DNA of 43,774 nucleotides from Rhodobiaceae bacterium (GTDB lineage: Bacteria; Pseudomonadota; Alphaproteobacteria; MED-G09): NCBI GenBank assembly GCA_002731945.1, contig PCCF01000052.1:1-43774 (forward strand), read 5' to 3'. Below, one piece after another: positions 15,608-43,774 of this stretch. Within the stretch, counting starts at the first letter, position 1. Every line of letters begins with the position of its first letter. Under the pieces are notes generated by a model, which made no database searches, was not told the origin of the DNA, and saw nothing but the letters and a program-made list of their open reading frames with translations. A program made the translations under genes and the position numbers.

Positions 15608-16684
15608 ATGAAAAATTTAAATGATGAAATTATCTTTCCTTGTGGAACCTCTATGAAGAATCGATTCATGTTAGCTCCACTAACTAACACTCAAAGCCAT
15701 GAAGACGGTTGCTTGTCTGATGAAGAATTTAATTGGTTAACATTAAGAGCCAAAGGTAATTTTGGTATAACAATGTCCTGTGCCTCTCACGTGCAAGAAA
15801 TAGGTAAAGGTTTTTCAGGCCAATTAGGAATATTTAATGATAACCACATAGAAGGTTTAAAGAGATTAACTGATGAAATAAAAACTTATAATAGCCTTGC
15901 GATTGCTCAACTTCATCATGCAGGCATGAGATCTCCAGAGGATATAATTGGAGAAAAACCTGTATGTCCTTCTGCAGATGAAAAAACCAATTCTAGAGCA
16001 TTATCTCTAGATGAGATTAAACATTTACGTGATGACTTTATTAATGCAGCCGTAAGAGCAAAAAAATCCGGTTATGAAGGTGTAGAAATACATGGTGCTC
16101 ATGGCTATATCCTGTGTCAATTTTTGAGTTCAACAATAAATAAAAGAAAAGATGAGTATGGAGGTTCATTAGAAAATAGGTCCAGAATAATATTTGAAAT
16201 AGTTAAAGGAATTAGAGAAAATTGTGGGAATAGTTTTTTATTGGGAGTAAGGCTTTCGGCAGAAAGATTTGGGGTAAAGTTGAGTGAGATTAAAATAGTA
16301 TGCCAGAGACTAATTGATGAACAGAAAATAGATTTTTTAGACATGTCGTTATGGGATTCATTTAAATATCCAAATGAAGATGAGCATAAAGGAAAAACCT
16401 TACTTCAGCATTTTACAGAATTAGATTTTAAAGATGTTTTATTAACAGTAGCGGGAAATATCAGGACTAGTCAGAATGTAAATGATATCATTAATTCTGG
16501 AGTTGATTTTGTTACAGTTGGAAGAGCAGCAATATTACATCATGACTTTCCAGTCAAAATAATGGAAAACCCAAATTTCAACCCAATTGATCTCCCTGCT
16601 CCTAAATCGCATCTAAGAGAAGAAGGTTTAAGTGAAAAATTCATTGATTATTTAAAATTTTTTAAAGGCTTCGTTGAAGAATAA
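15608..16684 (+). CDS. NADH:flavin oxidoreductase / old yellow enzyme family
   Basis: FMN-binding TIM-barrel ene-reductase of 358 residues. Landmarks are MKNRFMLAPLTNTQS (strand 1), IAQLHHAGMRS, the paired VEIHGAHGYILCQFLSSTINKRKDEYGGSLENRSR (substrate and FMN site), GVRLSAERFGV, and GNIRTSQNVNDIINSGVDFVTVGRAAI (phosphate binding). There is no C-terminal FeS/FAD extension, so it is the short OYE type, which reduces activated C=C bonds such as enones. AAAAGGAAATAAAG precedes the start. It stands alone on its strand. Confidence 0.93.
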   Translation: MKNLNDEIIFPCGTSMKNRFMLAPLTNTQSHEDGCLSDEEFNWLTLRAKGNFGITMSCASHVQEIGKGFSGQLGIFNDNHIEGLKRLTDEIKTYNSLAIAQLHHAGMRSPEDIIGEKPVCPSADEKTNSRALSLDEIKHLRDDFINAAVRAKKSGYEGVEIHGAHGYILCQFLSSTINKRKDEYGGSLENRSRIIFEIVKGIRENCGNSFLLGVRLSAERFGVKLSEIKIVCQRLIDEQKIDFLDMSLWDSFKYPNEDEHKGKTLLQHFTELDFKDVLLTVAGNIRTSQNVNDIINSGVDFVTVGRAAILHHDFPVKIMENPNFNPIDLPAPKSHLREEGLSEKFIDYLKFFKGFVEE

Positions 16685-33538: not shown

Positions 33539-35233
33539 ATGACTATTTCTGTCAGTTATGCCAGCGGCCCTTCAGATAAACCCCTTCTGGGTATGACTAT
33601 CCCTGACCTCTTTGACAACATCGTGAGTGAGCATGGTGACCGAGAGGCGGTTGTTTGTCTGCACCAGGATCTTCGGCTTACATACGAACAGCTATCGGAA
33701 CGGGTAAATGTCCTGGCTAAAGCCTTCATTGCTGCCGGATTTAGCAAAGGTGACCGGGTGGGTATTTGGTCTACCAATAACATGGAATGGGTGGCCACAC
33801 AGTACGCCACGGCTAAAGCTGGTATTATTCTGGTAACAATCAACCCAGCATACCGTGTGCATGAACTAGCCTACGTGTTGGAGCAGTCTGGTTGTAAGGG
33901 ACTAGTGCTGCAGAGCCAGTTTAAAACCTCAGACTACGAAGGCATGATCGGTGAGCTGTGCCCAGAGCTCGCAAGTAGTGATGTAGGAAACCTTACCTCG
34001 GACAAGTTTCCCAACTTGAATCACATCATTTCGATGACCACGTCGGGACTGTCTGGTATCTATAACTGGGAAGATTTTCTCACTCTTGCCGATCAGTCAG
34101 GTGACGAAGACCTAGCGAAACGTCAATTCGATCAGGACATGGATGATGCTATAAATATCCAGTACACCAGCGGTACCACTGGTTTTCCCAAGGGCGCGAC
34201 ACTTAGTCACCACAATATTCTGAACAACGGTTATTTCGTGGCTTCTACGATGAACTTCACTGAGAATGACAGGCTAGTGGTTCCAGTGCCGCTCTATCAC
34301 TGCTTCGGCATGGTGATGGGCAACCTTGGTTGTCTCACCCATGGTGCCTGCGTCATCTATCCGAGCGAAGTCTTTGAACCAGAAGCAGTACTGAAGGCGG
34401 CGCAAGAGGAGAAAGCGACCGCACTTTATGGTGTGCCCACCATGTTCATTGCAGAGTTGGCATTGCCAAATTTCGCTGACTACAACCTCACCTCTCTACG
34501 CACGGGCATCATGGCCGGTGCGCCCTGCCCGACCGAAACCATGAAAAAGGTCAACGAGCTGATGCATATGACAGAGGTACAAATCGCCTATGGCATGACC
34601 GAAACCAGCCCTGTTAGCTTTCAGACCCGTGTGGATTCGCCTCTGGATAAACGTGTTAGCACGGTGGGCAAGGTTCACCCTCACGTGGAGGTAAAGATTA
34701 TCGATACCGAGACTGGCAAAATGTGTCCAGTAAATGAAATGGGCGAACTCTGCACCCGAGGTTACTCGGTGATGCTGGGCTACTGGAAAAATGAACAAGC
34801 AACTGTCGTTGCTATTGATAAGAGCGGTTGGATGCACACTGGGGATACCGCCGTGATGGATGAAGACGGTTACGTCAACATTGTCGGCCGTATCAAAGAC
34901 ATGATCGTTCGTGGTGGTGAAAATGTCTACCCCGTAGAGATCGAGGAATTCCTGATGACAAATAAAACAATCAAAGCGGTGCAAGTCACAGGCGTACCCG
35001 ATCCTAGATTCGGTGAGGAGATTATCGCATGGATCAGTCTCAAAGATAATGTCGAGCTGACTGAAGAAGAAGTGAAAGACTTTTGCAAGGGCAAGATCGC
35101 TCACTACAAGGTGCCACGTTATATTCGTTTTAGCGAAGACTTCCCCATGACCGTCACTGGCAAAGTTCAGAAGTTCAAGATGCGCGAGATCAGCATCAAG
35201 GAACTGGGACTGGAAGAACAGGCTACAGCGTGA
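33539..35233 (+). CDS. AMP-dependent acyl-CoA synthetase (FadD/medium-chain type)
   Basis: ANL-superfamily acid:CoA ligase of 564 residues. P-loop YTSGTTGFPKGATLSHHN (about 209-226), A5 AYGMTETSPVSFQT, A7 GWMHTGDTAVMDEDGYVNIVGRIKDMIVRGGENVYPVEIEEF, and the final catalytic Lys in MTVTGKVQKFKMRE are all intact. The protein resembles fatty-acid and short aryl/alkyl acid ligases. Base composition is clearly G+C-richer than its neighbours, with codons such as CTG, GCC and GGC, and it lies next to tRNA-Cys: transfer is likely. It probably activates the acid that enters the downstream genes (inference). Confidence 0.93.
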   Translation: MTISVSYASGPSDKPLLGMTIPDLFDNIVSEHGDREAVVCLHQDLRLTYEQLSERVNVLAKAFIAAGFSKGDRVGIWSTNNMEWVATQYATAKAGIILVTINPAYRVHELAYVLEQSGCKGLVLQSQFKTSDYEGMIGELCPELASSDVGNLTSDKFPNLNHIISMTTSGLSGIYNWEDFLTLADQSGDEDLAKRQFDQDMDDAINIQYTSGTTGFPKGATLSHHNILNNGYFVASTMNFTENDRLVVPVPLYHCFGMVMGNLGCLTHGACVIYPSEVFEPEAVLKAAQEEKATALYGVPTMFIAELALPNFADYNLTSLRTGIMAGAPCPTETMKKVNELMHMTEVQIAYGMTETSPVSFQTRVDSPLDKRVSTVGKVHPHVEVKIIDTETGKMCPVNEMGELCTRGYSVMLGYWKNEQATVVAIDKSGWMHTGDTAVMDEDGYVNIVGRIKDMIVRGGENVYPVEIEEFLMTNKTIKAVQVTGVPDPRFGEEIIAWISLKDNVELTEEEVKDFCKGKIAHYKVPRYIRFSEDFPMTVTGKVQKFKMREISIKELGLEEQATA

Positions 35234-35275
35234 GGGCTATAACTTTTTAAATATAGCATAACAAGGAGGATTATT

Positions 35276-35689
35276 ATGTCAGTTGAAGAGAATAAGCAGG
35301 TAGTGCATAAATTTTTTAACTCAGTGTCAAACGACGATTTTCAAGTTGCTCTTAATGTTCTAGATGTAGACATAGTGTGGACCATCATAGGTGATACACC
35401 CGTATCGAAAACTTTTCGAGGCCTAAAGGATGTAGAAGAGAATCTGCTTAAAGAAATATTCCGATGTACAAAACGAGAGGCAGGCATTAACCTAGAAGTT
35501 GTTGAAACCATCTCTGAAGGCGATAAGGTTGTAGCACGCGTTCAAGGCACAGTTGAAGCTAAATACGGCACTTATAACAATACTTATTGTCATGTGTTTA
35601 CAGTGGTTGATAAAAAAATCATTGAAGATATCGAATATCTAGATACTGCTCTTATTCAAAAAACATGGTATGGCAGAACTTTAAACTGA
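35276..35689 (+). CDS. SnoaL-like/ketosteroid-isomerase-fold protein
   Basis: A 137-residue NTF2-fold protein: VVHKFFNSVSNDDFQVALNVLDVDIVWTIIGDTPVSKTFRGLKDVEENLL, then VVETISEGDKVVARVQGTVEAKYGTYNNTYCHVFTVVDKKIIEDIEYLDTALIQKTWY. This is the SnoaL_2/limonene-hydrolase-like group; the Arg-x-Asp pair of limonene-epoxide hydrolase is absent (ARVQG), so hydrolase activity is doubtful. AAGGAGGATTATT is a near-perfect ribosome site. It begins 42 bases after the CoA ligase and 13 bases before the VOC gene, so an operon is likely. Confidence 0.83.
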   Translation: MSVEENKQVVHKFFNSVSNDDFQVALNVLDVDIVWTIIGDTPVSKTFRGLKDVEENLLKEIFRCTKREAGINLEVVETISEGDKVVARVQGTVEAKYGTYNNTYCHVFTVVDKKIIEDIEYLDTALIQKTWYGRTLN

Positions 35690-35702
35690 AGGAGAAAAAC
35701 TA

Positions 35703-36110
35703 ATGGTAGGACCTTTAAATCATGTTGGTGTGGCTGTTCCTTCAATTGAGAAGGCTGCTCAAACCTATAGAGACCTATATGATATTGCAGACATCACAGA
35801 ACCATCTGAAATGCCAACCCAAGGAGTAAGGTTTTGTTTTGTCAACCTAGAGAATAGCCAAATTGAACTTATTGAACCTTTGGGTGATAACTCCCCTATT
35901 GAAAAATTCTTAGAAAAGAATCCTAAAGGGGGTCAACATCACGTTTGCTTTGAAGTTAAAGATATTAATAAAGCTAAATCTGAAATGGAAAGAAAGGGGG
36001 CAACAGTTTTAAACGAACCAAGGATTGGAGCCCATGGTACTCTGGTTATTTTTATTCATCCCAAAGATAATAACGGCGTTCTAATAGAATTGATGGAAAC
36101 ACCCAAATAA
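35703..36110 (+). CDS. VOC-fold protein, methylmalonyl-CoA-epimerase-like
   Basis: Glyoxalase/VOC protein of 135 residues. LNHVGVAVPSIEKAAQTYRDLYDI, SQIELIEPLG, GGQHHVCFEVKDINKA and NGVLIELME follow the methylmalonyl-CoA epimerase template, with metal ligands H7, Glu of the IEL motif, His of QHH and the final Glu. Epimerisation of methylmalonyl-CoA would feed propionyl-CoA products into the TCA cycle; alternatively it acts on another CoA intermediate of this cluster. GGAG precedes the start; the PRISE-like gene follows after 10 bases. Confidence 0.85.
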   Translation: MVGPLNHVGVAVPSIEKAAQTYRDLYDIADITEPSEMPTQGVRFCFVNLENSQIELIEPLGDNSPIEKFLEKNPKGGQHHVCFEVKDINKAKSEMERKGATVLNEPRIGAHGTLVIFIHPKDNNGVLIELMETPK

Positions 36111-36120
36111 AATACAGGTA

Positions 36121-37212
36121 ATGAAAAAAGGTAAAATAATTATAGTTGGGGCAACAGGTGTTATTGGCAATGCTGCCTTAGAAAGATTTGTTTCTTCAGG
36201 TTGGGATGTAATTTCTGTTTCTAGAAGGAAACCAGAATGCAAATCCGGTAGTTTTAAACATATTTCGATAGATTTAACAAAAAAAAATGAATGTAATAAA
36301 ATTTTCTCTTCAATAAGCGATATCACGCATGTCCTTTATACTGCTCTCTTTGAAAAGCCTGGTCTAATTCTTGGTTGGTATGAAGAAGATCAAATGCAAA
36401 CAAATCTTGAAATGATGCAAAATATTATGGAACCGATTTCAGCCTCAAACCCAGGATTGAAACATGTATCTTTTTTGCAAGGAACAAAGGCTTATGGTGT
36501 CCATCATCACAGTATTTCTATTCCAGCAAAAGAATCTAGGTCACGTGATGATCATGAAAATTTTTATTGGTTTCAAGAAGATTATATCAAATCACTTCAA
36601 AAGGATTCTAATTGGACATGGACAATTTTTAGACCACAAATTGTTTTTGGTTATTCTTACGGAACCGCAATGAATCTTATTCCTATTATAGGCATCTATG
36701 CTGCAATCTGTAATGAAACAAAAAAACCCTTTAGTTTTCCTGGTAGATCAGATGTTATACTTGAAGCTGTAGATGCAAGACTTATTGCAAAAGCTTGTGA
36801 ATGGGCAGCTTTTAACAAAGAAAGTGAAAATCAAATCTTCAATATTACTAATGGCGACGTTTTTACTTGGGGTGATGTTTGGTCAACAATATCTCAGAGT
36901 TTAAATGTAAGCCCTGGCCCAGATGACCAAATTCAACTAAGCGCGTGGCTTCCAAAACAAAGTAAAATTTGGGAAAGTATAGTTGATAAATATGACTTGA
37001 AAAAAAACAAGTTAAGTGAAATGCTTGGTGAATCTCATTATTATGCAGATTTTTGCTTTGGACATGGGGTAGCGGAAAATATTAAAGCGGCTTTGGTAAG
37101 CACAATCAAGCTTCGCCAAGCTGGGTTTCATGAATGTATTGATACTGAAGAAATGTTCAAAGAACTCTTCAACGAATTCCAAGAAAGAAAAATTCTTCCC
37201 AAACTCAATTAA
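36121..37212 (+). CDS. PRISE-like short-chain reductase (progesterone 5-beta-reductase/iridoid synthase type)
   Basis: Atypical extended SDR of 363 residues. Cofactor loop IIIVGATGVIGNAAL is followed by VSRRKP. The catalytic Lys motif is LQGTKAYG with K123, and the tyrosine motif reads NFYWFQED with Y149; plant enzymes have NFYYxxED, so one of the two adjacent Tyr positions is Trp here. FRPQIVFGYSYGTAMN is also typical. Plant relatives reduce enones of steroids and 8-oxogeranial by 1,4-addition, so an enone or terpenoid substrate is plausible. It is last of the plus-strand unit and converges with doxX. Confidence 0.85.
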   Translation: MKKGKIIIVGATGVIGNAALERFVSSGWDVISVSRRKPECKSGSFKHISIDLTKKNECNKIFSSISDITHVLYTALFEKPGLILGWYEEDQMQTNLEMMQNIMEPISASNPGLKHVSFLQGTKAYGVHHHSISIPAKESRSRDDHENFYWFQEDYIKSLQKDSNWTWTIFRPQIVFGYSYGTAMNLIPIIGIYAAICNETKKPFSFPGRSDVILEAVDARLIAKACEWAAFNKESENQIFNITNGDVFTWGDVWSTISQSLNVSPGPDDQIQLSAWLPKQSKIWESIVDKYDLKKNKLSEMLGESHYYADFCFGHGVAENIKAALVSTIKLRQAGFHECIDTEEMFKELFNEFQERKILPKLN

Positions 37213-37635
37213 TTATTTGTTTCCTTTTATCATAAAAAATAATCCTAGAACAAATAAAAAAAATTGCTCTGTAGTAAAAATTTTTCCGGAAACAAACCAG
37301 TCTCTATGAACTAAAGAAAAAGCCCCTATCATAATGACAACCATAGCTCCCCCTGAAAGTCTTGTAATCACGTTACCTAAGGAACTCGAAATAAATCCTC
37401 CTACAATTATACCAATTCCTGAAATCAATTCGCCTAAAGCTACTAATGAACTAATTACTTCGGGAAAAGGTATACTCCAAAATTCAAATCCAGAAGTTAA
37501 TCTTTCTGGAGGAAGGGGAAATTTTCCGTAACTATGCAAAATAAAAGCCATTCCCAGGCTTAACCTTAATAACCAATTAGAAATACTAATAAAAGGGCTA
37601 GAAACCCTGTCTAGAAAATTACTAAATTTATTCAT
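37213..37635 (-). CDS. DoxX-family membrane protein
   Basis: Four-helix membrane protein of about 140 residues from the ATG at 37635; a GTG four codons upstream (37647) is an alternative. LLRLSLGMAFILHSYGKFP, FPEVISSLVALGELISGIGIIVGGFI, LSGGAMVVIMIGAF and FFLFVLGLFFMIKG match DoxX, associated with thiosulfate:quinone reduction in archaea and with redox stress in bacteria. Its start overlaps the stop of a 42-codon ORF by eight bases. Role here unknown. Confidence 0.85.
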   Translation of the reverse strand: MNKFSNFLDRVSSPFISISNWLLRLSLGMAFILHSYGKFPLPPERLTSGFEFWSIPFPEVISSLVALGELISGIGIIVGGFISSSLGNVITRLSGGAMVVIMIGAFSLVHRDWFVSGKIFTTEQFFLFVLGLFFMIKGNK

Positions 37636-37756
37636 CAGATTTTTCACTAACTAATTTCTTCTTTTTATAGTGAGCAAGATCAATCTGTTTTTGTTGTTCT
37701 AATTCTTTATCTACTTTTGTTTTTTTATCTGGTGTATTACAAACTGGAATTCCCAT
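37628..37756 (-). CDS. Small Lys-rich ORF coupled to doxX
   Basis: A 42-codon frame beginning MGIPVCNTPDKKTKVDKEL and ending KKKKLVSEKSDE, hydrophilic and highly charged. AAGGA lies seven bases before the ATG. It sits in the FAH-to-doxX gap and overlaps the doxX start, a sign of translational coupling. No family is recognised; a real small protein or a translated leader are both possible. Confidence 0.5.
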   Translation of the reverse strand: MGIPVCNTPDKKTKVDKELEQQKQIDLAHYKKKKLVSEKSDE

Positions 37757-37769
37757 AAATTTTCCTTAA

Positions 37770-38648
37770 TCAATATAATGTCGTGTTTGGCTCATTAATT
37801 ACTTCGTTTTTAATGTGACCAAGTTCCGAAATACTTATTTTGATAATATCTCCTTCTTTTAAGAATTTACCTTCCACACCCCCTACTCCGCTGGGTGTAC
37901 CTGTCAACACTAAATCTCCTGGCTCAAGTGTAAAAGCCGTAGAAAGATGTTCAACCAAATCAAAACAATTAAAAATAAGATTTTTGGTATTAGATTTTTG
38001 TCTTTCCTCTCCATTAACTTCAGTCATTAAATCTAAATTATGGGGATCAGAAATCTCATCCGGAGTGACGATTGCAGGACCAAATGGACAGTGAGTGTCA
38101 AAAGATTTACCTATAGTAAAGGTTGGAACACGAAGTTGCCAATCTCGAACACTTACATCATTGGCAATTGTGTAACCCGCAATAACTTCATTGGCTTTTT
38201 CTTTAGGAACATGACGGCATTTTTTTCCTATCACAAAAGTTAATTCACCTTCATAATCAAGCATTTCTGAGACCTTGGGATCATGAATATCGTCATACGG
38301 ACCAACCACAGAAAGTGATTGCTTATTGAAAATCATAGGTACTTTAGGGGCCTCCATTTCTCTTCCTGAAGCTTTGATTTCTTCAAGATGATCTGCATAA
38401 TTAAGCCCTATAGCAATAATCTTTGGTGGCCTAGAAATAGGAGCTAGGATATTAATATCATTTACAGCAATTCTCTTGTGAGTTGTTTCAAATAATTTTC
38501 TAGCAGCTTTTAATGCGCCTTCACCAGCTTCTAAAAAGCTCAACATATCTTCAGGTAAAGAGCTATCTTGAGAGAACGGAATAACCTCATCTTTATATAA
38601 AGCCCCTATCTGATTTCTACTTCCATTTTTAAAACTAATTAAACGCAT
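37770..38648 (-). CDS. Fumarylacetoacetate hydrolase (FAH) family protein
   Basis: FAH-fold hydrolase/isomerase/decarboxylase of 292 residues. The catalytic core is IAIGLNYADHLEEIK, then MLDYEGELTFVIGKKCRHV with the metal-binding Glu set, GYTIANDVSVRDWQ, FDTHCPFGPAIVTPDE and LVLTGTPSGVGG. Such enzymes hydrolyse or decarboxylate ring-cleavage products in aromatic and homoprotocatechuate pathways. It follows the SDR/hydroxylase/dioxygenase genes on the same strand, so a role on the meta-cleavage product is likely (inference). Confidence 0.92.
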   Translation of the reverse strand: MRLISFKNGSRNQIGALYKDEVIPFSQDSSLPEDMLSFLEAGEGALKAARKLFETTHKRIAVNDINILAPISRPPKIIAIGLNYADHLEEIKASGREMEAPKVPMIFNKQSLSVVGPYDDIHDPKVSEMLDYEGELTFVIGKKCRHVPKEKANEVIAGYTIANDVSVRDWQLRVPTFTIGKSFDTHCPFGPAIVTPDEISDPHNLDLMTEVNGEERQKSNTKNLIFNCFDLVEHLSTAFTLEPGDLVLTGTPSGVGGVEGKFLKEGDIIKISISELGHIKNEVINEPNTTLY

Positions 38649-38671
38649 GGCTTTGCCCTTTTATACATAAT

Positions 38672-39451
38672 TTACATTAAACCTTCATAAGAGCCACCGT
38701 CTAATTGAATGTTTTGCCCAGAAATATATCCTGCATGAATACTACAAAGAAACGCACAAGTAGAGCCAAACTCTTTAGGGTCCCCAAACCTTTTCGCGGC
38801 TAAAGTTGAAATTATCTCCTCCCTTGCCTCTTCTCTCGTTATACCTTTGCTGTTCATCAACATTTCAGTCATAAAGATTTGTCTATCAGTATCAAATCTT
38901 TCAGGTAACAAATTATTAATTGTGACATTATACGAGGATACGTCCTTTGAAAGGCTCTTACTTAAGGCTGTTAAACCAGCCCTTGCTGAAGTTGATAGAC
39001 TCATTAAGGGGTGTGGTGACTTAACCATAGCGGAAGTAATATTAATAATTCTTCCAAATTTTCTTTTTTTCATTCCGGGCAGTAATTCTTTTATCAGAAA
39101 GACCGCAGCCAACATATTCATTTCCAAAGCATCAATCCACTGTTCCTTTTCAATATTTAAAAATTCTGCAGGGGCTGGGCCTCCATTATTATTCACTAAT
39201 ATATCAGCATCTGGGCATGCATTAATTAAAGAAATTTTTCCTTCATCTGTATTAAGGTCTGCCTGTACCATAGTGATTTTTGCATCTGCGAACTTATTTA
39301 ATTCTTGAAAGGTCTTTTCTAAATTTGATTTGTTTCTGCTGTTAATTATAACGTTAACACCTTCTTTCAGTAAAGCCTCCGCACAGGCTCGTCCTAAGCC
39401 TTTACTAGACGCACATACTATGGCTTTTTTTCCTTTAATTCCTAAATCCAC
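38672..39451 (-). CDS. SDR family protein lacking the Tyr-x-x-x-Lys pair
   Basis: FabG-like SDR of 259 residues: CASSKGLGRA cofactor loop (13-22), NNNGGP (87-92), catalytic-type Ser140 in INITSA. The position of the catalytic Tyr is Ser153 and that of Lys is Arg157 (SLSTSARAGL). FabG-like paralogues with this change are known and poorly understood. A usable NAD site remains. It starts with GTG that overlaps the hydroxylase TAG stop (TAGTG), implying coupled synthesis with that enzyme. Confidence 0.88.
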   Translation of the reverse strand: MDLGIKGKKAIVCASSKGLGRACAEALLKEGVNVIINSRNKSNLEKTFQELNKFADAKITMVQADLNTDEGKISLINACPDADILVNNNGGPAPAEFLNIEKEQWIDALEMNMLAAVFLIKELLPGMKKRKFGRIINITSAMVKSPHPLMSLSTSARAGLTALSKSLSKDVSSYNVTINNLLPERFDTDRQIFMTEMLMNSKGITREEAREEIISTLAAKRFGDPKEFGSTCAFLCSIHAGYISGQNIQLDGGSYEGLM

Positions 39452-40977
39452 TAAACCTCCAACTGCGATTGTAAGTCGGTTAACAAATCAGAAAAAGAAA
39501 TATCTTTTGTGGTTGCCCCGAAAACATACCTATCTGGTCTAACAATATAAGTATCACTACTTTGCATAAACATACTAAGCCATTGATTTTCTTTAATTTC
39601 TTTATCTTTTAATATTATAAATTTAGCGTTTATCTTGTTGAGGAAAATTGATTCTCTTTTTTTTATATTAATATCAATTTTCGATAAAATAGAAAAATCA
39701 TCTCCCAAAATTTTGTCATTTCTTTCTTTAATTTTAGTGTTATGAAATTGGATGGGTTGGGGAAATAATTCACCAATTAAAGGATTATTACAAGAAGACT
39801 GATTAAATAAAATACCTTTCTCAAGGACTGGAATTCTAAAAGATCCATAGCCTCGATTGATAACCTCTTCTGGAATTTCGTCAATAGTATTATCTCTTGA
39901 ACCTATCGAATATGCTTCCATTAACTTTCCAATAGCAGCTGATCCCTCAACTATAAATTGAGCATGAGGACGTCTTTCGACATTGTATGTTTTAAGGATA
40001 TTTTCAGGAAATGATTTTTTCAGAACAAAATTTAATTTCCAATACAAATTAATTGCGTCTCTATAGCCTGACATCATTCCTTGTCCCATAAAGGGTGGAC
40101 CTTGATGAGCAGAATCTCCAACTAGAAAAACTTTCTCCTTTTGAAAATTTTTTGCCAAGACTGAATGAAAACGATAAGAGGCCGACCTAATAACTTTATA
40201 TTTCTCAGATTCTAACCAGGGTCCTATTAACTCACGAACCTTTCTCTCTTTCATCATTTCATGCTTATCTTCATCATCGAGCAAGAGAAATTCCCATCTC
40301 TTAAATGGTTTTGGGAATGGTATAAATGTTGTCATACGATCTGGGTCACATACTTGGATAGCATAATTTCCAAGATCGTGATCATCATTGGTCTCAACAT
40401 CAACCACTATCCAATCTTTATCATAACCAAGACTTTCGAGTCTTATTCCACATAATTTCCTTACTAAACTGGAAGCACCATCAGCCCCAATAAGATATCT
40501 TGACGTAAACTTACATTCTTTCTCACTTTCTGAATTATAAGCATTTAGTTCAACAATTTCTGAATTCTGAGAAAAACTCAATAATTCCGTACCCAAAGAT
40601 ATTGTCGCTCCACTATTTAATAAAAATTCTCTTATTGTTTTATCAGCATAGGGCTGCCAAAAAAAATAAGTTGGGAGCCAACCATTTCCTGTATAGAAAT
40701 CATCAGGAATATCCATGCCGCTTAACCTATTAAGATTTTTATCAGTGAAGATAGCTCCTGAAGGATTTGAAAAATGATCGCTATAAGCGCTTTCTAAGTT
40801 TACGCGTTGCATTATCCTCATGCCTTCATCGTCTATATTAGCTGCTCTAGGTAGAGGAAAAATACTAATATCCTTGTCTATCCCCAGAACTTTTATCCCA
40901 GCTTGATTTAATAACAATGTGAGTAAAGTGCCAACAGGGCCTAAACCGACAATAATCACATCAAAATGTTTAGTCAT
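39451..40977 (-). CDS. FAD-dependent aromatic-ring hydroxylase (MhpA/PheA-like)
   Basis: Class A flavoprotein monooxygenase of 508 residues. Dinucleotide-binding fold DVIIVGLGPVGTLLTLLLNQAG starts at residue 6. LIGADGASSLVRKLCGI is the DG motif and VFLVGDSAHQGPPFMGQGMMSGYRDAINLYWKL the GD motif binding FAD ribityl. The C-terminal thioredoxin-like domain of this group is present. Relatives hydroxylate phenolic rings with NAD(P)H, such as 3-(3-hydroxyphenyl)propionate, or resorcinol. It lies between the extradiol dioxygenase (10 bases upstream) and the SDR (overlapping), consistent with making the catechol that is then cleaved. Confidence 0.92.
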   Translation of the reverse strand: MTKHFDVIIVGLGPVGTLLTLLLNQAGIKVLGIDKDISIFPLPRAANIDDEGMRIMQRVNLESAYSDHFSNPSGAIFTDKNLNRLSGMDIPDDFYTGNGWLPTYFFWQPYADKTIREFLLNSGATISLGTELLSFSQNSEIVELNAYNSESEKECKFTSRYLIGADGASSLVRKLCGIRLESLGYDKDWIVVDVETNDDHDLGNYAIQVCDPDRMTTFIPFPKPFKRWEFLLLDDEDKHEMMKERKVRELIGPWLESEKYKVIRSASYRFHSVLAKNFQKEKVFLVGDSAHQGPPFMGQGMMSGYRDAINLYWKLNFVLKKSFPENILKTYNVERRPHAQFIVEGSAAIGKLMEAYSIGSRDNTIDEIPEEVINRGYGSFRIPVLEKGILFNQSSCNNPLIGELFPQPIQFHNTKIKERNDKILGDDFSILSKIDINIKKRESIFLNKINAKFIILKDKEIKENQWLSMFMQSSDTYIVRPDRYVFGATTKDISFSDLLTDLQSQLEV

Positions 40978-40987
40978 CCGGTGCTAT

Positions 40988-41959
40988 TTAAACACCTTCA
41001 TCGTTTCCAAAGGTTTGTGTGATATCAGGACCCCATTGCATTCCCGTTGCTTCAGCAATATTTGTTGTTCCGGTCTTAACTTTATTATCAAAGACGTCAC
41101 TATCAGTCATATGTTCATATACATGATTATAAGGTGATCTCCAATAATCAAAAACCTGACTACCAAGATAATGTCGGCCAATCCCCCACTCGTGCCGGTA
41201 CCCTTTTTCCTTCAACATCTCATACCCCAAAAACACATCATCTATATCTGTAACTTCATAGGAAACATGGTTTAATCCACTTTTCATTTCTGAGGGAATG
41301 TTTGACTGAATCAAAAGACTGTGATGATCAGTAGGGGCATCGCCTAAATCACATCTACTAAAAAAAGCACCAACAGTATTGGGTGCAATCTCAATGACAT
41401 CCGATGCTATAAAGCCAAGATATTCGTTATACCAATCAAAAGATTTATTGGGATCTAATACATTTATTCCTATGTGCCCTAATTTCTTTATTGTCGAAGA
41501 ACGGGGTTTACCAACTCTCTTTGTTTCATTAATTCTTTGATAGTTTTCTTTTCCTACACCACCTAAGTTACTAGGTTTGGGTGAAAGGGCTTCGTGATCC
41601 GGTTCTCTTTCTGTAATTCCAAACACTATTTCAACCAGAATATCATCTGGATCCCTAGCGCTAACTTTAATCCCTCCTCCAGGGGCTTGAATTTCTTGAA
41701 CCTCAGAAAAAGGGCCAGTTCCACTAATTTTTTTTAAGTCGTTTTCACTTTGTGCGTAGAAAGCAAGACCTATAAAACTTTTCTCCCCTTTTTGAGTAAC
41801 AGAAATATAATTCTGATTCCCTGATCCACGCATATACAGGATATCGTTTTCTAAGGATACCCTCTTCATTCCAAAATCAATCAAGAAAGTTTCTTGGATG
41901 CCTAAATCTGGTACTTGCAAAATAGGATAAGCTACATCTCTTACTTTAATCCCATTCAT
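40988..41959 (-). CDS. Extradiol ring-cleavage dioxygenase-like protein (type I, VOC fold)
   Basis: Two-domain VOC protein of 323 residues patterned on catechol 2,3-dioxygenases. The metal triad in the C-terminal domain is complete: H162 (LGHIGINV), H231 (LNHVSYEV) and E282 (HVYEHMTD). The second-sphere His at D211-H212-H213 and the GRHYLGSQVFDYWRSP segment are also present. The N-terminal domain lacks the His ligands, as in the known enzymes. TGAGGTAAA precedes the ATG. A Fe(II) meta-cleavage of a catechol made by the adjacent hydroxylase is the likely role; substrate unknown. Confidence 0.88.
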   Translation of the reverse strand: MNGIKVRDVAYPILQVPDLGIQETFLIDFGMKRVSLENDILYMRGSGNQNYISVTQKGEKSFIGLAFYAQSENDLKKISGTGPFSEVQEIQAPGGGIKVSARDPDDILVEIVFGITEREPDHEALSPKPSNLGGVGKENYQRINETKRVGKPRSSTIKKLGHIGINVLDPNKSFDWYNEYLGFIASDVIEIAPNTVGAFFSRCDLGDAPTDHHSLLIQSNIPSEMKSGLNHVSYEVTDIDDVFLGYEMLKEKGYRHEWGIGRHYLGSQVFDYWRSPYNHVYEHMTDSDVFDNKVKTGTTNIAEATGMQWGPDITQTFGNDEGV

Positions 41960-41965
41960 TTTACC

Positions 41966-42724
41966 TCACAGTAAGTTAATCTTCGTTCCACATAACTTTA
42001 AACTTAAATTACCTGAAATCTTATACTTTGAAATTATTTCTTCTTTTTTATCTTCATCGTTGATTTTTATGTCAATCTCTGACAAATACGTTAATCCTTT
42101 ATCAGAATCTTTAGAGAATCTAATTTCAAAATCTTCACCCTTGATCACATCGTGTTGATTTTTTTTTGATAATGGTAACTTAAGAAAAGAGCTCCACTTC
42201 CGTGATAATTCGTTCGGACTAACACAAGACATTTCTGCGCCTATAATTGCGAAACTATCGTTAACTTTACTAGTCATCCAATCTGTTCCAGCCCACTGCC
42301 AGTCGGAATATTTATTTTTCCATTTTTCATTATTCATGGAATCAACTGACATAATCACTCCACCGATATCTTTGGGATGAAAATGTGTGGCAATCACACC
42401 ATTTTCAAGGTTAGTTGTCCAAACTTGCCTTATATTTAATTCTTCTGCTTTTTCCCTGTAGATTTGGGCGTTTTCACATTGGAAAATTAACATATAACCG
42501 CTGTCACCTTTCATCCTGTCGAGATATCTTCCTGCAGTTGTGCTCTCTTCAGTTGGGGAAACGACTTCTAAGAAATCGCCTCCTACCTCTATTAGGCCAT
42601 TAGCCAAACCAAAATGCCCAACCCCTGGATCCCTGAAACAAACCTCAGCTTGTAAGAGGTCACAAAACTGATCTAAAGTTTTCTCAAGATCATGAGCTAC
42701 AAAACAAATTTGACGAAGTCTCAA
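41966..42724 (-). CDS. VOC-family protein (glyoxalase/dioxygenase fold)
   Basis: A 252-residue VOC protein: RQICFVAHDLEKTLDQFCDLLQAEVCF, GGDFLEVVSPTEESTTAGRYLDRMKGDSGYMLIFQ, ATHFHPKDIGGVIMSVDSM, with H10, E54 and a later His as possible metal ligands. The second half (TDWMTSKVNDSFAIIGAEM onward) is a weaker VOC repeat. It starts with TTG, eight bases after AAAGGA; no ATG is available. It precedes the dioxygenase by six bases. Function not assigned. Confidence 0.8.
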   Translation of the reverse strand: MRLRQICFVAHDLEKTLDQFCDLLQAEVCFRDPGVGHFGLANGLIEVGGDFLEVVSPTEESTTAGRYLDRMKGDSGYMLIFQCENAQIYREKAEELNIRQVWTTNLENGVIATHFHPKDIGGVIMSVDSMNNEKWKNKYSDWQWAGTDWMTSKVNDSFAIIGAEMSCVSPNELSRKWSSFLKLPLSKKNQHDVIKGEDFEIRFSKDSDKGLTYLSEIDIKINDEDKKEEIISKYKISGNLSLKLCGTKINLL

Positions 42725-42834
42725 TTTTTAATTCCTTTCATTTTCTTGACTTGCTTATTATTCTTAGAGCAGTTTTAATTGTATTTTTTTTCGAGCCATC
42801 AATTTATCACACTATATAGATCCACCCTTTACAA

Positions 42835-43774
42835 CTAAATCTTTACCATAAGTTTACCTGTGTGCCCTCCGTTGAAAAGCATCTTGAGGGCCCTTGGAAA
42901 AGATTCAATTCCATTTTCATAATGTGTTGGTACAATTATCTTTCCCTCTTCATAGAGGTCTAGAAGATTCTTAGTAGCTTCTTCAAACTTTTCAGAAAAA
43001 TGCATTACCGTGAAACCCTCCATCCTTGCATAGTTTTCGGCTAACTTAAGAAACATTTTAGGTCCGGTCACATTTTTCATGTCCGAATACTGTGAGATGG
43101 CTCCACATATGGCTACTCTAGCGCCCGTATTAAGATTGTTTAAAACGGCGTCAAGTATATCACCACCAACATTATCAAAAAATACATCAATTTTATCCTT
43201 TGCTATATTTTCCAGTTCCTTCTCTACGTCAGAGTTTTTATAATCGATAGCGTGGTCCATTCCCAGATCATTTAATAAATAAGAGCATTTCTCTGGGCCC
43301 CCGGCAATAGCAATAACCTTTGCGCCCAAAGCTTTTGCCAATTGACAAACTATAATCCCTACACCACCGGCAGCTCCCGAAACTACAACAGTTTCACCTT
43401 CTTTAACCTTCCCTACATCTATCAAACCAAAATAGGCGGTGAGACCGGAAGTTAAACCAATTAACCCAATATTTACTTCCGGGTCCAAGTGAGGATTATT
43501 GATCTTGTTGAAGGCTGCAGCGTGCATAGTTGAATGTGTTTGTGCTCCCAACGGTCCGCTAACAAAATCTCCCTCTTGAAATTTTTTCGATTTACTAATT
43601 AAAACTTCCCCAATTCCAAGAGCAGAAATTACCTTTCCCTCCTGAGCTGAGTCGTGATAGCTGCCCTCATGTAAAGTTGTTCTAATCCAAGCATCAATAG
43701 CTAAGGTATCAACTTTTATCAGTAGCTCGTCTTTTTCTGGAGCTTTTGCAAGATCCTCTACGACTTTAAAATTT
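42835..43774 (-). CDS. Zinc-independent MDR quinone/enone reductase, 5' end beyond the window
   Basis: Partial gene: the frame is open to the window edge, giving about 312 residues with the first ones missing. The N-terminal catalytic part (LLIKVDTLAIDAWIRTTLHEGSY, KKFQEGDFVSGPLGAQTH) and the NADP-fold VKEGETVVVSGAAGGVGIIVCQLAKALGAKVIAIAGG match the leukotriene/prostaglandin-reductase-like and CurA group of the MDR family. FDNVGGDILDAVL and HTGKLMVKI close it. A TTG at 43551 is internal, not the start. It may reduce an alkene intermediate of the cluster; 110 bases separate it from the VOC gene. Confidence 0.9.
   Translation of the reverse strand, partial: NFKVVEDLAKAPEKDELLIKVDTLAIDAWIRTTLHEGSYHDSAQEGKVISALGIGEVLISKSKKFQEGDFVSGPLGAQTHSTMHAAAFNKINNPHLDPEVNIGLIGLTSGLTAYFGLIDVGKVKEGETVVVSGAAGGVGIIVCQLAKALGAKVIAIAGGPEKCSYLLNDLGMDHAIDYKNSDVEKELENIAKDKIDVFFDNVGGDILDAVLNNLNTGARVAICGAISQYSDMKNVTGPKMFLKLAENYARMEGFTVMHFSEKFEEATKNLLDLYEEGKIIVPTHYENGIESFPRALKMLFNGGHTGKLMVKI

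Follow-up and report, generated by a model that had tools for sequence, protein, structure and literature searches.

The window analysed here is the 43,774-nucleotide contig PCCF01000052.1 (our C51), a complete contig of an alphaproteobacterial metagenome-assembled genome (Rhodobiaceae bacterium, GCA_002731945.1; 1.37 Mb, 96% complete). A run of minus-strand genes at its right end includes an FAD hydroxylase, an extradiol dioxygenase, an SDR and an FAH-superfamily hydrolase, a set predicted to open an aromatic ring. We think it likely that this run is a composite catabolic operon: an operon typical of the family, here without its P450, that has gained a dioxygenase-hydroxylase-SDR block with related sets mainly in SAR86. 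Directly observed are the genes present, their intact catalytic residues, the conserved neighbourhoods, how the locus differs from that of sister genomes, and the nearest kin.

In three genomes of a sister genus (L118, L119 and L120), the same flanks enclose this locus, where an operon has the order desaturase, MDR-type reductase, P450, VOC252 (a two-domain VOC protein) and FAH, with an FMN oxidoreductase facing it. Identities to the window are 74-76% for the desaturase, 70-71% for MDR, 53-55% for VOC252 and 70-73% for FAH. No dioxygenase, FAD hydroxylase or SDR lies between these flanks in the three genomes. In the window, the dioxygenase, hydroxylase and SDR stand between VOC252 and FAH, and the orthologues of the sister P450 and FMN oxidoreductase (~80% identity each) are elsewhere, about 21-33 kb leftward of the operon. 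The desaturase is on another contig, C60; the window's final 99 bases match the end of C60 exactly, and the join completes the MDR frame. The dioxygenase has no match at E<=1e-15 in 17 genomes of the same family, five of them at least 93% complete. The comparison points to a native layer, the operon of desaturase, MDR, P450, VOC and FAH, and to a second, inserted layer of dioxygenase, hydroxylase and SDR. By this comparison MDR and the extra VOC protein are part of the older, native layer, which explains a gene content that seemed odd in the original prediction, made from the sequence alone.

That prediction had taken the whole run for one compact pathway. In its full form, this alternative holds that all eight genes, with MDR, the extra VOC protein and DoxX as enzymes, form a single dedicated pathway whose substrate is an unusual aromatic of terpenoid or steroid-like kind. 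Tight spacing on one strand and a host rich in oxidative genes such as P450s are compatible with it. However, the sister-genus locus has MDR and VOC252 together with FAH but lacks the block, none of the 32 hydroxylase-bearing SAR86 loci described below contains VOC252, MDR or DoxX, and the model of the steroid dioxygenase HsaC gives 39 bits against a cut-off of 450. DoxX, also placed in the pathway at first, has its homologues (41-47% identity) elsewhere in same-family genomes. We consider a single pathway distinctly unlikely. The sister-genus arrangement, desaturase-MDR-P450-VOC-FAH facing an FMN oxidoreductase, is an uncharacterised family operon with a conserved place in L118, L119 and L120.

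Active sites and predicted chemistry

The dioxygenase has the features of a type I extradiol enzyme. The ligands of its 2-His-1-Glu iron site (H162, H231 and E282) are kept in the window protein and 19 aligned homologues, as are H213, H263 and Y272, which include the catalytic His and Tyr, and the C-terminal domain aligns with BphC. Thus the iron site, on which the original prediction had staked the pathway beforehand, is intact. The protein fits no named equivalog among BphC, HpaD, HsaC and C23O (best score 51 bits, cut-off 366), and models of the steroid, phenylpropionate, biphenyl and catechol pathways all score far under their curated cut-offs. The steroid 9,10-seco pathway (HsaC/HsaD) was rejected on the HsaC score given above and on the lack of a C-C alpha/beta hydrolase in the cluster.

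The FAD hydroxylase has an FAD_binding_3 domain (PF01494, 6.7e-52) and the GxGxxG, DG and GD motifs of group A enzymes. It scores narrowly above a broad MhpA-like subfamily model (NF004829, 391.5 versus 390 bits). Identification as MhpA was rejected, as the protein falls below every MhpA equivalog cut-off (at best 302 versus 546 bits), and no LigB or alpha/beta hydrolase, which would represent the partners MhpB and MhpC, lies within the cluster. The FAH protein belongs to its superfamily by a metal-binding ExE motif and a His dyad region, and its relatives with solved structures include HpaG, acylpyruvase and maleylpyruvate hydrolase.

Hydroxylation, extradiol cleavage and FAH-type hydrolysis fit this anatomy, and the sequence is well supported as a prediction from the protein families. 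The group A hydroxylase would hydroxylate a phenolic ring at the ortho position using NAD(P)H and O2, and the Fe(II) dioxygenase would open the resulting catechol or trihydroxybenzene. FAH may hydrolyse (or isomerise or decarboxylate) the ring-opened keto acid to central metabolites, with the SDR possibly working on an intermediate via an unusual Ser/Arg centre. The original prediction recognised a hydroxylase, extradiol dioxygenase and FAH set with no assignable textbook substrate, and we find this set conserved, with an intact active site. Of the catabolic route it proposed for an unusual aromatic, ring cleavage stands; the terpenoid or steroid-like compound has no specific support and the low HsaC score against it.

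The SDR was originally described as inactive-looking. It does lack YxxxK: Ser153 and Arg157 replace the Tyr and Lys of classical SDRs. It is not degenerate, as positions 140/153/157 are S/S/R in the window protein and all 20 homologues (21/21; 47-80% identity) and the same S-x3-R motif occurs in the solved structures PDB 5va8 and 5vps. The window protein matches 5va8, 5vps and 5idx over its full length (E about 1e-77 to 1e-78). By its Ser/Arg pair and full-length homology to 5va8 and 5vps it is, from sequence, a member of a conserved S-x3-R subfamily with solved structures, and a decaying gene was ruled out on the invariance of the motif. Plasmid relatives in Bradyrhizobium, Thioclava and Caballeronia carry the same pair, and plasmid S-x3-R SDRs adjoin genes for FAD monooxygenase, VOC and FAH proteins. 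To our knowledge, no reaction has been assigned to the S-x3-R SDRs with solved structures, and we know of none in the DntD/DntG pathway discussed below. Inactive as it looks, the SDR is conserved as a companion of ring cleavage, and its reaction is worth finding. A second conserved cluster of the family, in L122 (the same genome) and L123, encodes an SDR whose catalytic positions read T..S...R, an enoyl-CoA hydratase, and Rieske-oxygenase-like and amidohydrolase-like proteins with an MFS transporter (names are our own reading of translations).

The product of ring opening may be of the acylpyruvate or maleylpyruvate type. A 1,2,4-trihydroxylated ring would be made and opened, and FAH would hydrolyse the product directly, by analogy with DntD and DntG on 2,4,5-trihydroxytoluene. 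This is a variant of the composite-operon reading rather than a competitor. We lean towards such a product because FAH is used, with no alpha/beta hydrolase accompanying the dioxygenase, and because a GST (with weak similarity to maleylacetoacetate isomerase) adjoins FAH and the dioxygenase in SAR86 and alphaproteobacterial versions. The acylpyruvase and maleylpyruvate hydrolase among the solved FAH relatives point the same way, as do the activities of DntD (trihydroxytoluene oxygenase) and DntG (bifunctional isomerase/hydrolase; PMC10602510). However, the window cluster has no GST, maiA scores are far under the cut-off (73 versus 171 bits), and the comparison with DntD/DntG is one of reaction logic. 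As a specific route it is tentative, somewhat short of an even chance.

Relatives in SAR86

The hydroxylase family is present in 57 of 199 genomes of the SAR86 order (E<=1e-80), 31 of the 57 at 42-49% identity; the order was identified through L007 and L008. We examined 32 SAR86 loci, picked by their hydroxylase, and took presence of a gene as a best BLASTP hit within up to ~20 kb. A ring-cleaving VOC gene is nearby in 30/32, and the two loci without one are partial or cut by contig ends. The dioxygenase is of the two-domain type in 13 loci and of the single-domain type in 21 (both types in 4), and the single-domain protein retains the His/His/Glu pattern. FAH occurs in 26/32, the S-x3-R SDR in 19/32 and GSTs in many. 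Sets of hydroxylase-dioxygenase-FAH or FAD-dioxygenase-SDR genes recur at lower identity in alphaproteobacteria and other Pseudomonadota. The original prediction called for a search for the same gene set in other genomes; because it recurs in many, chance juxtaposition is not the explanation. In plasmid records, the relatives of the hydroxylase and dioxygenase are distant only.

Two further features of these loci were seen. Sulfatase genes adjoin ring-cleavage clusters in 4/32 SAR86 loci (e.g., L069 5266-6819) and in the alphaproteobacterial L026 (1-1056), hinting at sulfated phenolics. The S-x3-R SDR of SAR86 REDSEA-S09_B4 (L007 6912-7674) is split over two frames, which probably reflects a frameshift or an error of assembly; in other SAR86 genomes the copies are intact.

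Among the genomes searched, the closest relatives are in SAR86: 60% identity for the dioxygenase (L093), 48% for the hydroxylase (42-49% across SAR86 relatives), and 72% for the SDR (67-72% over the full length, with a partial copy in L007 at 80%). FAH is 78% identical to that of L007. The dioxygenase tree groups the window protein with all SAR86 sequences (support 99), the SDR tree places the window copy inside SAR86 (support 99), and the hydroxylase lies beside the main SAR86 clade (support 100). A thin sample of the phylum (399 genomes) contained no non-SAR86 hydroxylase at E<=1e-95, and one alphaproteobacterium has a dioxygenase at 47% identity. For FAH, the tree and AU test are compatible both with native descent (83/92) and with the alternative of exchange with SAR86 (p-AU 0.37).

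Several points weigh against the composite-operon reading. Each gene has its nearest SAR86 relative at a different locus, which makes one clean transfer unlikely, and the direction of transfer is inferred only. The trees were built quickly and contain long branches, genomes outside SAR86 are thinly sampled, and the SAR86 loci were chosen by hydroxylase, with presence scored by best hit within up to ~20 kb. The C51-C60 join has the exact 99-base overlap and the open frame behind it, but no reads. An insertion here is not fully separable from a loss in the sister genus; absence of the dioxygenase from 17/17 family genomes searched favours gain. The chemical steps, the substrate and co-transcription are likewise all inferred.

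A different role would be non-catabolic, with the block detoxifying or remodelling a phenolic compound from the cell itself or its neighbours. No transporter or regulator is adjacent in the host genome and GSTs accompany many SAR86 versions, as might be expected in this case. However, when FAH-type hydrolysis follows ring cleavage, the products typically enter central metabolism, and seven SAR86 loci include a TonB receptor and a TetR regulator. We regard detoxification as unlikely. In a broader proposal, the hydroxylase, dioxygenase, S-x3-R SDR and FAH may represent a new ring-cleavage pathway, widespread in the sea, for a single abundant class of dissolved aromatics, exchanged between SAR86 and small-genome alphaproteobacteria, with an essential SDR step at a non-classical centre. 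It is speculative and, taken whole, rather improbable. Beyond simple compounds, the diet of SAR86 and of other streamlined bacteria at the sea surface is an open question. The set of three to four enzymes is defined and expressible, recurs in many SAR86 genomes and is seen inserted in an alphaproteobacterial operon, which makes an aromatic substrate directly testable.

Layout and flanking genes

Gene coordinates and domain matches bear out the genes originally named and their minus-strand order: MDR, VOC252, dioxygenase, FAD hydroxylase, SDR, FAH, a 42-codon open reading frame (ORF) and DoxX (Table 1). The tight spacing described for them is also confirmed. The gaps from MDR through FAH (six genes) are 110, 6, 10, -1 and 23 bases, and a stop overlaps the next start at two places (FAD hydroxylase/SDR and 42-codon ORF/DoxX). 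The cluster was said to start at 37628, which needs correction, since DoxX lies mostly to the left of that position.

Table 1. Genes of the ring-cleavage cluster and related features in the window.
Feature	Position	Strand	Remarks
MDR-type reductase (ADH_N_2/ADH_zinc_N; curcumin-reductase-like)	42835-43774	-	5' end cut by contig end; native-operon layer
VOC252, two-domain VOC protein, 252 aa	41966-42724	-	native-operon layer; no Pfam match
Type I (VOC) extradiol dioxygenase, two-domain, 323 aa	40988-41959	-	putative inserted block
Group A FAD hydroxylase (MhpA-like subfamily NF004829), 508 aa	39451-40977	-	putative inserted block
S-x3-R type SDR, 259 aa	38672-39451	-	putative inserted block
FAH-superfamily hydrolase, 292 aa	37770-38648	-	PF01557 4.6e-71; common to native operon and SAR86-type clusters
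42-codon ORF (putative)	37628-37756	-	from sequence; overlaps DoxX start
DoxX-family membrane protein	37213-37647	-	PF07681 9.7e-08
P450	9691-10965	+	~80% identical to P450 within sister-genus operon
FMN ene-reductase (Oxidored_FMN)	15608-16684	+	~80% identical to gene facing sister-genus operon
Facing genes: AMP-dependent CoA ligase, SnoaL, methylmalonyl-CoA epimerase-type VOC, PRISE-like reductase	33539-37212	+	pathway membership putative

Past MDR on C60 we identified, by our own reading of translations, desaturase/hydroxylase-like, COQ4-like, GH3 glycosidase and glucokinase genes, followed by rplQ, rpoA, rpsK, rpsM, adk and secY. The ferredoxin, transporter and regulator genes that the original prediction suggested seeking to the right are absent from this 9.5-kb extension, which holds the desaturase and then housekeeping genes. 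The window also shows the order TolC-DUF2497 (PopZ-type)-ValS, with a DUF2497 match, which we take to be an alphaproteobacterial marker.

VOC252 was rejected as a second dioxygenase. It is unlikely to be a metal dioxygenase because the His/His/Glu metal positions of its first domain are replaced (with the methylmalonyl-CoA epimerase of the window as reference). The facing plus-strand genes are as originally claimed, except that the 135-aa VOC protein (35703-36110) scores above the cut-off of the methylmalonyl-CoA epimerase model (150.4 versus 114.95 bits) and is probably an enzyme of propionate rather than aromatic metabolism. SnoaL, this VOC protein and PRISE are all absent from the 32 SAR86 loci. 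PRISE has no match in the 12 same-family genomes searched, and both it and DoxX, placed elsewhere in relatives and likewise missing from the SAR86 loci, were rejected as members of the block. The CoA ligase gene (33539-35233) has a GC content of 49.6% and a third-position GC (GC3) of 55.6%, above the other genes of the window (~35% and 20-33%), which suggests recent acquisition. Its plasmid relatives reach 57% identity.

Comparison with known systems

Aromatic ring-cleavage genes are already known from SAR86 (Magnimaribacterales), the same bacteria that harbour the nearest relatives of the block, with multiple catechol-2,3-dioxygenase-type genes, flavin hydroxylases and GSTs reported (PMC11582366). 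The portion of that report considered here names single genes and does not describe the hydroxylase-dioxygenase-SDR-FAH set or the S-x3-R SDR. Our literature search found no marine description of this set, nor, within the portions of sources considered, one of its SDR or of its patchwork arrival in an alphaproteobacterium.

The fde genes for naringenin (Herbaspirillum) and the ifc genes for isoflavone (Variovorax) likewise rely on a group A FAD hydroxylase and then on a VOC (glyoxalase-type) dioxygenase (PMC11069340, PMC11303751). A similar pathway could be proposed for the window, with 8-hydroxylation of a flavonoid or isoflavonoid followed by extradiol cleavage of the A-ring. However, fde has a Rieske partner, FdeD (PMC8552027), and ifc the cupins IfcD1/D2, and the cluster with its 9.5-kb extension encodes neither. 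The comparison with FdeC/FdeE and Ifc is by enzyme type, and the habitat suggested by SAR86 kinship is the open ocean. A flavonoid-type substrate is very unlikely.

We take DntG to be FAH-like. In 2,4-dinitrotoluene degradation (Burkholderia), DntD and DntG likewise cleave a trihydroxylated ring and then act on the product with a bifunctional isomerase/hydrolase (PMC10602510). That pathway uses a nitroarene dioxygenase, and the window cluster has none. The mhp/hpp pathway for phenylpropionate is similar in that the window hydroxylase scores above the cut-off of the broad model for the MhpA-like subfamily. It relies on MhpB (LigB type) and MhpC (an alpha/beta hydrolase), whereas the window encodes a VOC dioxygenase and FAH instead.

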